Assembly: GCA_026389365.1 (NCBI GenBank)
Contig: JAPLHZ010000340.1
Coordinates: 1 to 35,309, forward strand
Direction: 5' to 3'
DNA length: 35,309 nucleotides
Source of the DNA: Cyanobacteriota bacterium
GTDB taxonomy: Bacteria; Cyanobacteriota; Cyanobacteriia; Leptolyngbyales; Leptolyngbyaceae
Shown: positions 14,221 to 34,387 of the stretch, piece by piece
How positions within the stretch are numbered: position 1 is the stretch's first letter
How the letters are laid out: each line of letters begins with the position of its first letter
Notes under the pieces: model-generated
Database searches by the model: none
Seen by the model: only the letters and a program-made list of their open reading frames with translations
What the model was told of the DNA's origin: nothing
Position numbers and translations under genes: made by a program

Positions 14221-14643
14221 TCAATTTAACAATCTCAAAAATTCGATCGCTAACCCATCGGGATCAGCCAAAAACGCTACCTCATACCACCGATCGCCAA
14301 TCTGCTGTTTTTGCGGATCCAGTAGCACCGTCGCCCGCTGACCGATCGCGCTCAACCGTTCCTGAAACATCGTTACCCAATCTAGCAAACTCTCAGCAAT
14401 GCCCATCCGGGCCACATCAAACGACAAATGATAGTAGCCCACATAATGTTCATCAAAAAAAGCATCGACCGCAGGCTTCGGCTCAGGAATTTGGATTAAT
14501 TCTAGTCGCCCACCTAATCCTTCCATCCAACAGGCCAACGTCGTACCCGCCGTAAACCGATCGTTCACCTGAAATCCAAGTTGTTCATAGAACGCGATCG
14601 ACTTAAAAATATCCGCCGTCCGAATCGACACATGATGCAGCAT
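14221..14643 (-). CDS. VOC/glyoxalase-superfamily protein
   Basis: A protein of 140 residues with two beta-alpha-beta-beta-beta modules of the vicinal oxygen chelate fold. The first (MLHHVSIRTADIFKSIAFYE) offers an N-terminal His metal ligand. Glu is present in GRLELIQI, His in YYHLSFDV, and the last ligand Glu in FLADPDGLAIEFL, so a four-ligand metal site is plausible. Members include glyoxalase I, dioxygenases and resistance proteins; the substrate cannot be assigned. A TTG at 14646 also opens the frame, but the ATG at 14643 is preferred. The gene begins 6 bp after the TIGR02652 gene, so the two form an operon. Confidence 0.85.
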   Translation of the reverse strand: MLHHVSIRTADIFKSIAFYEQLGFQVNDRFTAGTTLACWMEGLGGRLELIQIPEPKPAVDAFFDEHYVGYYHLSFDVARMGIAESLLDWVTMFQERLSAIGQRATVLLDPQKQQIGDRWYEVAFLADPDGLAIEFLRLLN

Positions 14644-14649
14644 CAATCC

Positions 14650-15159
14650 CTACTCCAAAAGTCGAAAATAAGGATACCGCACCGGAGCACCCGGCTCCTT
14701 TTCTAGATCAAAATTAATAACATCCCACCGAGGCTCAAGTGAGGCTTCCACACTAAACTCCACTGGAAGTCCATAGAGCTTTGGTATTTGAGTATCCAAA
14801 GACTCACGCCAAGGGGTACTTCGTTCTAAATAGGTACTCACCAAATCCTGATAACGCGCTGCAATAATGACCTTTGTAGCCCGATAGCCCTGGGTATATA
14901 GCCGATCGAGTGCCTCGTGAATTTCAAATCGAATGCCATCAGGATGGTTATGTTGGCGATACCATTCATCCTTCCACAATCGCCAATGTCGCCCCGACTG
15001 GAGATGGACTAGCTCCTTCGCTTTGGGATCCGCCTCAAATGCACCATGACGTGGACACAGATAGGTATCTGTCAGAGTCAGAGCTGGAATGACCTGTCGG
15101 CAATGCGGACAAGAAATCTCAGCGCCATAGATGGGATATTGCAAGAGCAAACTATTCAT
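14650..15159 (-). CDS. TIGR02652-type conserved cyanobacterial protein
   Basis: A 169-residue protein that I recognise as a conserved cyanobacterial family. It begins with a zinc-ribbon-like segment ([20 protein letters not shown] then [12 protein letters not shown]), giving CxxC...C-P-R-H as possible metal ligands. It continues with [40 protein letters not shown] and [20 protein letters not shown], all strongly conserved in what I recall of the family. No enzymatic activity is known. The likely location is cytosolic, as there is no signal or membrane segment. It is upstream of the VOC gene in a two-gene unit and diverges from the gamma-carbonic-anhydrase-like gene. Confidence 0.85.
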
Positions 15160-15317
15160 ATCATCTGAAACTTATAGGGAGGATATTAAGCAGGTTCCAG
15201 GAGGAGGTCAAACTCGTAGAATATCTAAGAATATCTGAGTTGCTCCATTATTATAGCGATGGATATTTGTTGCGGTATTCCTCCTCCATCAATTTGTCAC
15301 AAACTCCCCGAATCACT

Positions 15318-15869
15318 ATGCCTTCTGCAAACTCCGGTCCTTCTACTCATTTCGGTCCAACCTATTGGCAACCCCCTGATTTATCTAATGCCACATTCAT
15401 CGCCCCCAATGCGACAATCATTGGCCACATTACGCTGGGTGTTGGCGTAAGTGTTTGGTATGGTGCGGTTCTACGGGGGGATCTGGAATCTATTATTGTT
15501 GGCGATCGGAGCAATATCCAAGATGGGGCAATTCTCCACGGTGATCCCGGCCAGCCTACCATTCTAGAATCTGACGTGACCATCGGCCATCGCGCCATTA
15601 TCCACAGTGCCCATATCGAATCCGGGTGCTTAATTGGTATGGGCGCTATAGTGCTTGATGGCGTTCGAGTTGGATCGGGCAGTATTATCGGTGCGGGCGC
15701 TGTTGTAACTAAAAATGTGCCCCCCCGATCGCGCGTTGTGGGTGTCCCTGGAAAAGTCATTAGCGAAGTCAGCGATACTGAGGCCGAAGAACTGATTGCC
15801 CACGCCCATCACTATGAAAGACTTGCGCAAGTTCATAATGGCACTGGAGTAGATTTAGGATTTCACTGA
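15318..15869 (+). CDS. Gamma-class carbonic anhydrase-like hexapeptide-repeat protein
   Basis: A left-handed beta-helix protein of 183 residues made of hexapeptide repeats ([57 protein letters not shown]). The three zinc-binding histidines of gamma carbonic anhydrases are present as His74 (LHGD), His91 and His96 (GHRAIIH). The fold continues to [18 protein letters not shown], the usual end of the helix. Related proteins include CamH and the N-terminal domain of CcmM, so CO2 hydration or a role near carbon concentration is possible, but many family members show no activity. The open frame extends upstream to a TTG at 15240, but the ATG at 15318 matches family N-termini and is preferred. Confidence 0.88.
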
Positions 15870-30540: not shown

Positions 30541-30902
30541 TAACGGGGATTCTTAAAGCTGAAGGTAAGCAGGCGATGAGCGTCTAGGTGAGTAGAAATA
30601 CTCATGCTGATTTGTCCAACCAGTATGTCAGATCATAAACAAGATTGCCTATAATCTAATCAAACATTTCCTATTATTCAGGAAAATGGTATCGATGGAG
30701 ACGACGATCGGAAAGTTTTTCTGATGCGGTGGAAGAACGGTGGGGCGATCGTCAGGAAATGCTGCGGGTTGAGATGGCAGATGTGAGGGAGTTCGATCGA
30801 TGGGATCAATAGAAATTATGTTTATCGACTTCTTGGGACGGACGCACCAGTATGAAAGCTTAGGCGTTGCATAATTAAGGTATGAAAACGAGGATAATTA
30901 CT
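30541..30902. other. Non-coding DNA upstream of tkt with one coding-like scrap
   Basis: This stretch has no convincing gene. It should hold the tkt promoter. On the plus strand a short open frame ending in TAG at 30810-30812 reads SDAVEERWGDRQEMLRVEMA and then DVREFDRWDQ, which looks coding-like but has no clear start and no family I can name. At 30861-30880 the sequence AGGCGTTGCATAATTAAGG might be the end of the degraded IS1-family element that follows. Confidence 0.4.
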
Positions 30903-30977
30903 ATGAAATACCCTAAGTACAAAAGTACTAATATCCGTAAAAATGGCATCAAACGAGGTAAGCAAAATCACATCTGC
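30903..30977 (+). pseudogene. Degraded 5' end of an IS1-family transposase (InsA-like)
   Basis: The 25 codons from ATG read MKYPKYKSTNIRKNGIKRGK then QNHIC. This is the InsA-type zinc-finger start (consensus MxCPxCxSxxIxKNGxxRGKQNHxC), but the first two cysteines have become tyrosines, each explained by one TGY-to-TAY change. After Cys the similarity ends at the junction with an oppositely oriented transposase fragment. It is not functional. Confidence 0.65.
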
Positions 30978-31104
30978 TACGGGGATCTTCGACGAACGGA
31001 CGACCACAATCCCGGCATTTATGATTTTGTTTTCCTCGGCGAGTCATGCCATTCTTCATGACATCATCAGAACCGCAGCTTGGACAGATTAGGTAGGGGT
31101 TCAT
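30978..31104 (-). pseudogene. 5' fragment of a second IS1-family transposase, opposite orientation
   Basis: On the minus strand an ATG at 31104 starts MNPYLICPSCGSDDVMKNGM, then TRRGKQNHKCRDCGRPFVED. All four zinc cysteines (7, 10, 30, 33) and the KNG-RGKQNH core of IS1-family InsA are intact. The similarity stops at about 30978; the frame then runs into antisense of the other fragment and stops at 30949. The helix-turn-helix and DDE catalytic parts are missing. An inverted-repeat-like element end lies 47 bp upstream at 31151-31175. Confidence 0.7.
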
Positions 31105-31150
31105 TTATTGTTCGTTGACGACAAGGTCCCGCAACACAGCCTATTATCCC

Positions 31151-31175
31151 TCACCCTTTCCCTAATGGCACTACC
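31151..31175 (-). mobile_element. Terminal inverted repeat of the minus-strand IS1-family element
   Basis: On the minus strand the sequence reads GGTAGTGCCATTAGGGAAAG and then GGTGA. The same terminus bounds the MITE at 34157-34271. The GGTxxTG start fits IS1-family ends, and its distance to the transposase ATG is appropriate for a left end. No second end of this element is present. Confidence 0.6.
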
Positions 31176-31342
31176 TCCTCCTAAATTAGTCATTACTCAG
31201 AATTGAATCCTGAATTTCTAGATCTTGAAAGTGTCGTGAAACGTCAATATTCTGGATCATCTTGTTGTGATTAGTTGGAATCCCTGTCTTCCAGATGTGA
31301 GACTATTGGAAAGCCTTATCTTTTATTTTGGATGCGTGGCTG

Positions 31343-32698
31343 ATGGTTGCTATTTTTGACGCTCTTCCTACGATCGATCTCCTGATTTACTTTGCAGCAT
31401 CGGGAGGGCTGGCTCAGCCAGAAAATTTGGCAAAGACTATTCGAGTTTGGTCGATCGCGAAGACACTTTATAACGAAAATGGCACTCTTGATTTAGGGGA
31501 ATGTTTTAATCCTGCTCAATGGCGTAGTTCCTACTTTCCCAACGGCATCCCAAAGCAATCGATCGTCCAGGTGCTCAAAGAATCGGGAATCGATCTGGAT
31601 GAGTGGATAAGAGATTATCGTCAGCGGTATCCTCAAGCGGCAGAGTGTGTGCTGAATATTATGGAGACGGATGCTTTTGCAGTGAGCGATCGGACGTTAC
31701 GCAATGATTTTGCAACGCTATCTAAGTTAGGCTGGCTGGGGGTTGTGGGTGAAGGGAAACAACGTAAATATCAACTGATGTCTGTTTTACCACGATCGAT
31801 TGCTCTTCAAGTTCATCGGGAAGAGGTGAGTACACAACAATTGATTCCGAATGAATTAACGTTGATTGCTGATCCCTTTTTGAGTCCGATTTTGGGAGAA
31901 CAGCGGTTCATTTTGGATGTTGAAAATGTGATGTCGAGTGATTTATCTCGTAGGCTTAGTACGATCGTTGACCAGCTCAAAGTCCTCTGGCAGTGCGATC
32001 CAGTGCAACCCGTTCGTTTGATTTATAAGAGTGCAAGGCTCTTCCAAGAAGAATGTGCGGTGATTATTTATCCGGTTTGTATTTATTATTGTCAACGTGC
32101 GCCCTATTTATTTGGGTTTGGCCAGACTCCGGGAACAATTAGTAGTGAGCAACCCAATCTAACCGAATGGTATGACTATCGATTGGATCATATTTTGAGC
32201 CTTGAGCCGATCGGGTGGACAGAGGTGCCGAGCAGTTGGCGACCGAAAGCTTGGTCAGGAAACGGGGTGCCGCCGAGATTTGTAGATAAGACACCGCAAC
32301 GGGTTTTGAATGAGGTGGGGGCGGGTTTGGGATTTGAGATTTATCGGCCTTTGAAAACGTTGCTATTGCGGTTTGATCAATATTTCTATGGTAATTATAT
32401 TGAGGGGACAGAGCGAGAAAAGCTATTTACGGTGATTACTTGGGAACAGGCAGCACGGGCCTGGAAGAACGATCGGGATGTGCCTGGGGGGATATCTCTA
32501 GACCAGTTGTTTGAGGGACGATCGAAGCAGCAAACAGATGTATTTTGTGTGATTGATCATCGGGTGGGAGATAACAATGTGGTGATGCGGATGCGGGCTT
32601 GGGGAGATAATGTTGAGGTGTTGTTGCCTTGGAGTTTTCGGGAACGGATGCGGAATGATTTAACAAAGAGTCGATCGTTCTATGGGGAGTTGAAATAG
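31343..32698 (+). CDS. TIGR03985-like CRISPR-associated WYL-type regulator
   Basis: A 451-residue protein from the preferred ATG; the frame opens 15 bp earlier at TTG. The N-terminus (LPTIDLLIYFAASGGLAQPE, NLAKTIRVWSIAKTLYNENG) and the winged-helix region VSDRTLRNDFATLSKLGWLG, then GKQRKYQL, match my memory of the TIGR03985 family, which is confined mainly to cyanobacteria and found near type III CRISPR loci. The central and C-terminal part (VRLIYKSARLFQEECAVIIY, PVCIYYCQRAPYLFGFGQTP) is WYL-like, a ligand-sensing fold. It probably acts as a transcription regulator responding to nucleotides or nucleic acid. It converges on the CARF nuclease with a 20 bp gap. No cas genes or array are in the window. 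Confidence 0.65.
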   Translation: MVAIFDALPTIDLLIYFAASGGLAQPENLAKTIRVWSIAKTLYNENGTLDLGECFNPAQWRSSYFPNGIPKQSIVQVLKESGIDLDEWIRDYRQRYPQAAECVLNIMETDAFAVSDRTLRNDFATLSKLGWLGVVGEGKQRKYQLMSVLPRSIALQVHREEVSTQQLIPNELTLIADPFLSPILGEQRFILDVENVMSSDLSRRLSTIVDQLKVLWQCDPVQPVRLIYKSARLFQEECAVIIYPVCIYYCQRAPYLFGFGQTPGTISSEQPNLTEWYDYRLDHILSLEPIGWTEVPSSWRPKAWSGNGVPPRFVDKTPQRVLNEVGAGLGFEIYRPLKTLLLRFDQYFYGNYIEGTEREKLFTVITWEQAARAWKNDRDVPGGISLDQLFEGRSKQQTDVFCVIDHRVGDNNVVMRMRAWGDNVEVLLPWSFRERMRNDLTKSRSFYGELK

Positions 32699-32718: not shown

Positions 32719-33912
32719 TTATTTGAATTCATTGAGCCATTGCGTCATTCTATTTCCAAGTTGATGGAGATCTTTGCGACCAAAGACTTTGATTTTTGGA
32801 TCTTTGCGTTGATGGATTTTGCTAGAGGCGATATCTAATTCATCTCGTAGACGATCGGGATAGTCTGAACAGCACACTAAGGCGATTCTTGCTTCTGTGC
32901 CCCCGAGTTGCTGAGCACGGGTCTTTGCTTCCATGAGCTTTTGTTTACAGAGTGGGTGGCTGGCGCTGGTGGTGCAGGAAAAGTAAAATAGGTGGTAAGA
33001 CTGCATGAATGCAACATCAGATTCAAATTTGTCGGCGGCGTCTTTTCGGTTTGGATCTTGGATATGAAATGACATGCCTCGATCGTGAATTTTATTTGTA
33101 TCTGCGATGCGTTCAATTTCTGCGAGGACATGGTTCTCCATCCAAATGCCGTTGAGCCATTCACAAAGCTGGGTGATACTTTGGAAGCCTTTGGTTTTGG
33201 CAACTTGTAGGGAGAGTTGGGTGGCGTTTGCATCTAGATAGGTTTGACACCATTGTTTTAGATCTCTGGGCAAAGATTGAATACTGAGGGGCGCGATCTT
33301 TTCTAGTTCTAATTCACTTAGCCAAATATTCTTTCTGTATTGTATTTTTTCTTGTAGGGTGTTGTCGCACCACTTTCTCCAAGCTCTTTGGAGTATGTCG
33401 TTTTGGTGGTGATGGGCGAGTTGGGTGGCGGCGATCGGTAGGGTTGCAGTTTCGACGGGGGTGAGGTCTTTACGCCATTGGAGTCCATGGAGGGCGAAGA
33501 GGGCATCGAAGGAAAGGGGGATGGTGCATTTGAGTCGATCGCTTTTTCGATCGTTGTTGTCGATGATAATCTCTTGGGTTTGGGAGTCGAGGTAGCTGAA
33601 GACTGCGTTGGGGTGAAGTTGACTAATGGCACGATAGGCATGGACGGACATGGCTTTATTGCCGCCTGTATAGTTCAAGCCGATGCTGCCTTGGAGGGAT
33701 TGGGCGCTGGTGCTAATTCGGCTGGCAATGATGGAGGCTTCGGCTTGGTTGTCTTCGAGGTTGATGAGTTGAGCGGGTTTTAGGCTAGGTTTGGCGACGG
33801 CTAATGCGGTGGCGAGACGTTGGGCTTGGAGTTGGGTTTGTTTGGTATGGATGAGGTAGGGGGTGCCGATCGGGGATAGGAGGGCGATCGCGGCGTTGCT
33901 ATTGATGGGATA
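32719..33912 (-). CDS. CARF-domain nuclease (Card1/Can2-like, DUF1887-related); start missing or frameshifted
   Basis: The open frame has 397 codons, from just after a TAA at 33913-33915. The N-terminal 110 residues are a CARF domain: IALLSPIGTPYLIHTKQTQ, QLINLEDNQAEASIIASRI and the ligand loop GLNYTGGNKAMSVHAYR. The C-terminal region is a PD-(D/E)xK-like nuclease: NGIWMENHVLAEIERIA, DKFESDVAFMQSYHLFYFSC, then KLMEAKTRAQQLGGTEARIA. Such proteins are activated by cyclic oligoadenylate from type III CRISPR complexes and cut DNA or RNA. No ATG, GTG or TTG occurs in the first 78 codons. The first TTG (33678) falls inside the CARF loop and cannot be the true start. Frameshift near the 5' end, a non-standard start or decay are possible. 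The usual ExK is SCT. Confidence 0.65.
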   Translation of the reverse strand, partial: YPINSNAAIALLSPIGTPYLIHTKQTQLQAQRLATALAVAKPSLKPAQLINLEDNQAEASIIASRISTSAQSLQGSIGLNYTGGNKAMSVHAYRAISQLHPNAVFSYLDSQTQEIIIDNNDRKSDRLKCTIPLSFDALFALHGLQWRKDLTPVETATLPIAATQLAHHHQNDILQRAWRKWCDNTLQEKIQYRKNIWLSELELEKIAPLSIQSLPRDLKQWCQTYLDANATQLSLQVAKTKGFQSITQLCEWLNGIWMENHVLAEIERIADTNKIHDRGMSFHIQDPNRKDAADKFESDVAFMQSYHLFYFSCTTSASHPLCKQKLMEAKTRAQQLGGTEARIALVCCSDYPDRLRDELDIASSKIHQRKDPKIKVFGRKDLHQLGNRMTQWLNEFK

Positions 33913-33921
33913 TTACCAGTT

Positions 33922-34128
33922 CTAGCCCCAACCTCTGAGCGATCGCGCCAAAGTCTGTGGTAAGTGACCGATTTCATACAACAAATCTCGAGGACTAATC
34001 TCAAATCCGTATTGCAGCACTAAAAAGATTGCCCCGATCGTCAATAACATTCCTAGACCGGATTTTAATGCTCCAGATAATAATCTGATTGCCAAAACTA
34101 CCACAGCGATCGCAGCAACTAGAACCAC
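33922..34128 (-). CDS. Small membrane protein, 5' end altered by MITE insertion
   Basis: A 68-residue protein from GTG at 34128. It has two hydrophobic segments (VLVAAIAVVVLAIRLLSGAL and GLGMLLTIGAIFLVLQYGF) and a soluble tail, EISPRDLLYEIGHLPQTLARSL. No family is recognised beyond a small cyanobacterial membrane protein. The frame continues upstream for 13 more codons (reading PILDSIDSRT just before the GTG) until a TAA at 34168-34170 that belongs to the MITE. No ATG is found there, so the original start was probably displaced by the insertion. The stop codon lies 9 bp before the open CARF-nuclease frame, in the same direction. Confidence 0.55.
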   Translation of the reverse strand: MVLVAAIAVVVLAIRLLSGALKSGLGMLLTIGAIFLVLQYGFEISPRDLLYEIGHLPQTLARSLRGWG

Positions 34129-34156
34129 AGTGCGAGAATCGATCGAGTCTAAAATT

Positions 34157-34271
34157 GGGTAGTGCCCTTACTTAAAGGATAGAGAAAAATAGCCTTTAAT
34201 CGTCAAATGCTTACCGCACCGCTTCTGAGAATATCCGATTATTCTTTACCCTTTACATAATGGCACTACCC
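34157..34271. mobile_element. 115-bp MITE with IS1-type terminal inverted repeats
   Basis: The left end GGGTAGTGCCCTTACTTAAA and the right end read on the minus strand, GGGTAGTGCCATTATGTAAA, agree at 21 of the outer 25 positions. There is no coding capacity. The right-end form GGTAGTGCCATTA is also the terminus of the IS1-family fragment at 31151-31175, 3 kb away, so that transposase type probably mobilised it. No clear target-site duplication was seen. Confidence 0.75.
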
Positions 34272-34387
34272 AGGTTTTTATGAAAACCCCGATTGTTCTT
34301 GGTCTCTAACCTGAGTAGTTACAACTCAAGCTAAAGTGAAATACTGATTACCTCAAGAAATAACCTAAGGGTTTCCCAAACAATAGT

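Follow-up and report, generated by a model that had tools for sequence, protein, structure and literature searches.

The window (the whole stretch of DNA that was analysed, 35,309 nucleotides in length) carries on its minus strand, at 32719–33912, a 5′-truncated gene that is predicted to encode an effector of the Can2/Card1 type with a CARF domain and a PD-(D/E)xK nuclease domain. The gene comprises 397 sense codons and a stop codon at 32721–32719, and its 5′ end has no start codon. A plus-strand gene for a TIGR03985 WYL-type CRISPR-associated regulator (31328–32698) meets it tail to tail, with 20 nt between the two, and directly upstream of the CARF frame lies an intact, unrelated minus-strand gene for a small protein of 68 residues (33922–34128), the C-terminus of which is conserved in relatives. 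Repeats common to genomes of the same genus (30863–30979 and 30983–31104) and a terminal-repeat-like end resembling a MITE end (31140–31175) occupy 30863–31175, and a MITE-like element with 40-nt terminal inverted repeats that are 80% complementary is located at 34151–34277. The inverted repeats of this element have the end GGGTAGTGCC, and related copies are present in the same-genus genomes G002 and G003. A small frame in the repeat region 30863–31104 (MKYPKYKSTNIRKNGIKRGKQNHIC...) may resemble InsA of the IS1 type; a Pfam search of this frame gave no match. The window aligns with a further genome of the genus (G001) at ∼89–91% up to ∼30726, after which the two diverge. Beyond this point the order in the window is repeats, terminal-repeat-like end, WYL gene, CARF gene, 68-residue gene, MITE-like element and an hsdM gene that is cut by the window end. 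By these comparisons, the segment that holds the CARF gene is lineage-specific and contains IS/MITE-like remnants.

The window protein matches the PADLOC profile CARF4--CARF_PDDEXK (PDLC01883) with an E value of 3.5e-124, its frame covering profile positions 26–389 of 390; the nearest intact homologue (genome G024, 49% identity to the window protein) covers positions 5–390. Among solved structures, DUF1887/Can2 proteins are the nearest relatives in sequence. Can2 of Thermoanaerobacter brockii matches the family profile at an E value of 1e-61 and is also the best fold match of the AlphaFold model of the intact G024 homologue. Homology extends over both the CARF and the nuclease domains and, as judged from sequence, the gene belongs to the CARF–PD-(D/E)xK nucleases of the Can2/Card1 type. 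Effectors of this type are switched on by cyclic oligoadenylate made by the Cas10 of type III CRISPR systems. The strand-4 motif of the CARF domain (LNYTGGNKAM; 33649–33678, minus strand) is present as N80-Y-T-G-G-N-K86 and fits the pattern [DN]x[ST]xxx[RK] with its basic residue. Lys86 aligns with the invariant lysine of the family motif TGGTK (Lys99 of Can2), and the threonine at position 85 of this motif, which is 99% conserved in the family, is an asparagine in the window protein. The nuclease domain (approximately 32722–33141, minus strand), as located by alignment to T. brockii Can2 (8q3y/8q41) and by invariant columns, keeps Glu297 and Asp299 (FESD) and Lys323, and the catalytic residues Glu297, Asp299, Lys323 and Glu328 are at the family positions.

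The CARF frame is bounded upstream by a TAA at 33915–33913 (minus strand). The 78 codons from 33912 to 33679 that follow contain no ATG, GTG, TTG or CTG, in agreement with the preliminary description, which had reported this segment to be without a usable start. The earliest possible start is TTG 33678 and the earliest ATG is at 33651, both of which lie within the strand-4 motif. Since a run of 78 codons without a start is expected by chance with a probability of ∼11%, computed from the codon usage of the CARF gene itself, the absence is weak evidence by count alone and owes its strength to homology. The start-less segment (33679–33912, minus strand) corresponds to helix 1 and strands 2–3 of the CARF domain, on the basis of an alignment to 79 homologues and AlphaFold models, with strand 1 and the GENPLP loop absent. 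Thus, CARF coding sequence does extend upstream of TTG 33678, where automatic start calling would clip it, as had been anticipated. The segment had further been called an excellent CARF domain, which holds for its homology; the domain is incomplete, beginning at helix 1/strand 2 without strand 1 and the ligand loop.

The alignment of homologues that had been proposed as a check shows that they do not begin at the TTG. The CARF domain starts ∼22–24 residues before the window frame in 79 of 80 GTDB homologue loci, with the sequence M...YKVDHLFLLIGENPLP|NYVAA, which supplies the start codon, strand 1 and the ligand-binding loop. The consensus of this segment, M..Y(K/Q)(V/T)DHLFLL(I/M)GENPLP, stands directly before NYVAA, where the window frame begins. 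It is also present in seven of eight full-length homologues from the genomes of relatives (a set that overlaps the 80 GTDB loci), and the sole exception among the 80 is a damaged locus, L040, described below. In the model of the intact homologue (pLDDT 94.9) the segment forms the first β-strand (residues 13–19) and a loop (residues 21–27); the model of the window protein (mean pLDDT 93.4) starts at the next helix and lacks both. A survey of CARF domains (PMC4012209) placed the two main conserved regions at strand 1 and after strand 4, respectively, and Ser19-Asp20-His21 of Can2 contact cA4 (PMC7969007). These three residues align with the GEN loop of the family. A profile HMM of the 79 homologue N-termini, run against every frame of 33860–34130, gave a best score of −1.0 bits compared with 54–70 bits for controls, and the segment is absent in all frames. 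The missing N-terminus was likewise not found elsewhere in the same genome by a genome search or in a six-frame scan of the whole window. Relocation of the N-terminus, including to a position upstream of the WYL gene by circular permutation, was considered and rejected on the basis of these two scans.

The DNA at the position expected for the N-terminus is the conserved 3′ end of the 68-residue gene, the stop codon of which sits six bases before the TAA of the CARF frame. The gene ending at 33922 that had been noted earlier is real, as conservation of its product in relatives runs through to the final residue (in G016, 58% identity over residues 2–68). Relatives carrying this gene have no CARF gene after it, and it is present in none of the 80 CARF homologue loci. 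The junction zone, from the stop codon of the 68-residue gene to the first CARF-like codons, spans 33904–33921 (minus strand) and contains the TAA of the CARF frame. Local alignment of the junction DNA with the 5′ ends of homologues gave weak and inconsistent matches and the homologues are 49% identical; we therefore do not claim a breakpoint to the base. Because no frame scores against the N-terminal profile, a conserved 68-residue gene is in place and the N-terminus was found nowhere in the genome and window scans, we conclude that the frame results from a 5′ truncation joined to another gene and not from a slipped base.

The order of the neighbouring genes is also changed. In 39 of the 80 homologue loci, as well as on Anabaena cylindrica pANACY.01, the CARF gene has a WYL relative upstream in head-to-head (divergent) orientation, whereas the WYL and CARF genes of the window are tail to tail. 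The CARF gene of G024 has a Cas10 gene downstream; G057 carries the nearest WYL relative (46%), at the end of a cas cluster that looks RAMP-type by eye. A location beside type III CRISPR genes is usual for the family, if not strictly defining; in the window the CARF gene has only the TIGR03985 WYL gene beside it. A search of the genome found a single Cas10, which belongs to a type III-B locus on another contig (C183), and the CARF and WYL genes of the window are therefore orphans. The III-B locus (L107:7237–17001) contains a Cas10b with GGDD, RAMP-like genes, a CARF–HEPN (Csm6-like) effector and a CRISPR array; a 332-residue ORF at 14510–15508 within it appears by eye to be Cas1-like.

The remainder of the gene is intact, its frame being open over its whole length with no frameshift. 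All 23 invariant family columns are kept and, of 28 columns with conservation of at least 95% among homologues, the window protein differs at one, which places it at rank 18 of 80. Relaxed constraint or long decay of the remainder was rejected on the grounds that such a mismatch is ordinary. The retention of the invariant residues together with this ordinary mismatch therefore suggests either that the loss is recent or that the remainder is still used. Plasmids and viral contigs were searched for an intact close copy: the plasmids yielded four matches, each with less than 60% identity, and the viral contigs yielded none. No close relative of the window gene (>50% identity) was found, and an ancestral intact version of the same locus was not seen.

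Loss of the 5′ part is seen elsewhere in the CARF–nuclease family. Locus L040 (the same sequence as L006; L139), from a Leptolyngbyaceae MAG, has an internal frameshifting deletion of ∼37 nt (by count against L005) after MNTTKFDKYKVN, which removes the same strand-1/ligand-loop segment that is absent from the window. Plasmid p3 of Planktothrix agardhii (L143:488–2061) carries a CARF–nuclease remnant consisting of residues 208–393, and C-terminal remnants of the same nuclease family are present at L008, L009 and L010 in G018, G027 and G039. Two cases of damage at the same strand are too few for a pattern.

Taken together, the gene is probably a 5′-truncated orphan of a Can2-like effector gene and an ordinary pseudogene relic. 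A deletion or rearrangement would have joined the 5′ end of the effector gene to the end of the unrelated 68-residue gene, with loss of the promoter, the start codon and the first ∼24 codons and with the gene body left intact. This deletion is likely to be real in the living organism and may be recent. No full-length protein would be expected. At most, a read-through mRNA might be translated from TTG 33678 or ATG 33651 to give a product of 319 or 310 residues with a broken, half CARF domain, in which control by cyclic oligoadenylate would be lost, and such a product is likely to be inactive. The gene would then be left over from a type III locus, an orphan in a genome that keeps a separate III-B locus with its own CARF–HEPN effector. 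Against this reading, 397 codons without a stop or frameshift and a full set of invariant residues are also what would be expected of a protein in use.

An artefact of the assembly is unlikely. The organism would then have an intact CARF gene, the 5′ end of which was collapsed in the draft or mis-joined to the 68-residue gene. The draft consists of 412 contigs, and the nearby IS/MITE-like repeats belong to a class of sequence at which assemblies break; however, the repeats that were found are at least 200 nt from the junction with none at it, the genome search revealed no contig end that carries the missing N-terminus and 22–24 missing codons are beyond any single base error.

We also consider it improbable that the start-less frame is translated from a non-canonical start at an isoleucine codon (ATC 33906 or a different one), with initiation coupled to the stop codon of the 68-residue gene, which lies 15 nt upstream, to give a functional CARF protein without strand 1. 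Such translation would be consistent with an open and conserved frame, with the proximity of ATC 33906 to the upstream stop and with the confidence of the AlphaFold model of the remainder, but no well-placed Shine–Dalgarno sequence precedes ATC 33906. Moreover, a start at this rare codon would still give a CARF domain without strand 1, and strand 1 with its loop, kept in all but one of the 80 homologues, holds one of the two regions in which CARF domains are mainly conserved (PMC4012209) and includes the cA4 contacts Ser19–His21 of Can2 (PMC7969007). It is very unlikely that a termination-coupled start at an isoleucine codon yields a working effector, the strand-1-less CARF domain of which is untied from cA4 and is either constitutive or responsive to another ligand. 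If this were the case, L040, with loss of the same strand, would suggest that the nuclease is repeatedly freed from signalling in this way.

Least probable of all is a one-base frameshift near 33890–33915, one of the causes proposed in the preliminary description, or a base-call error there, or programmed frameshifting from the upstream gene ending at 33922 or the overlapping TTG 34004 frame, that would join TGNIPSIAT to the CARF remainder: a neighbouring frame does read TGNIPS at the position of GENPLPN, but this supposed CARF beginning at most sits where that motif is expected and has no score against the N-terminal profile, the residues before it (LWRDRSEVGAR) are read from DNA of the conserved 68-residue gene in another frame and include no strand 1, and a single-base correction cannot restore the missing codons.

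The locus indicates that, where the open frame of a defence gene has no start, the cause can be a true 5′ deletion and not a sequencing slip. Annotation from TTG 33678 would wrongly list an intact protein of 319 residues. The gene is a further example of a cyanobacterial type III CRISPR ancillary effector that has decayed and been rearranged, L040 being damaged at the same place.

Compared with known systems, the window gene has the same CARF–PD-(D/E)xK architecture as Can2 (T. brockii, 8q3y; Sulfobacillus, 7bdv) and Card1 (DUF1887), with the NYTGG.K motif of strand 4 and the FE.D...K nuclease pattern, and these proteins are the best solved-structure matches both by profile and by the fold of the intact homologue. 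It differs from them in having no start codon, no CARF strand 1, no cA4-contacting loop and no adjoining cas effector genes. The cyanobacterial Can2-like proteins of PDLC01883 (G024, contig C18; A. cylindrica pANACY.01, WP_015217575) share the same profile over positions 26–389 and are complete, whereas the window gene is 5′-truncated; the G024 gene has a Cas10 gene as its neighbour, a RAMP-type cas gene is present at the Anabaena locus, and both have a TIGR03985-type WYL gene divergently upstream. Of the damaged members of the family, L040 has also lost strand 1, but it retains its ATG and the deletion is internal, while the P. agardhii p3 remnant has also lost its 5′ part but, unlike the window gene, adjoins a transposase gene.
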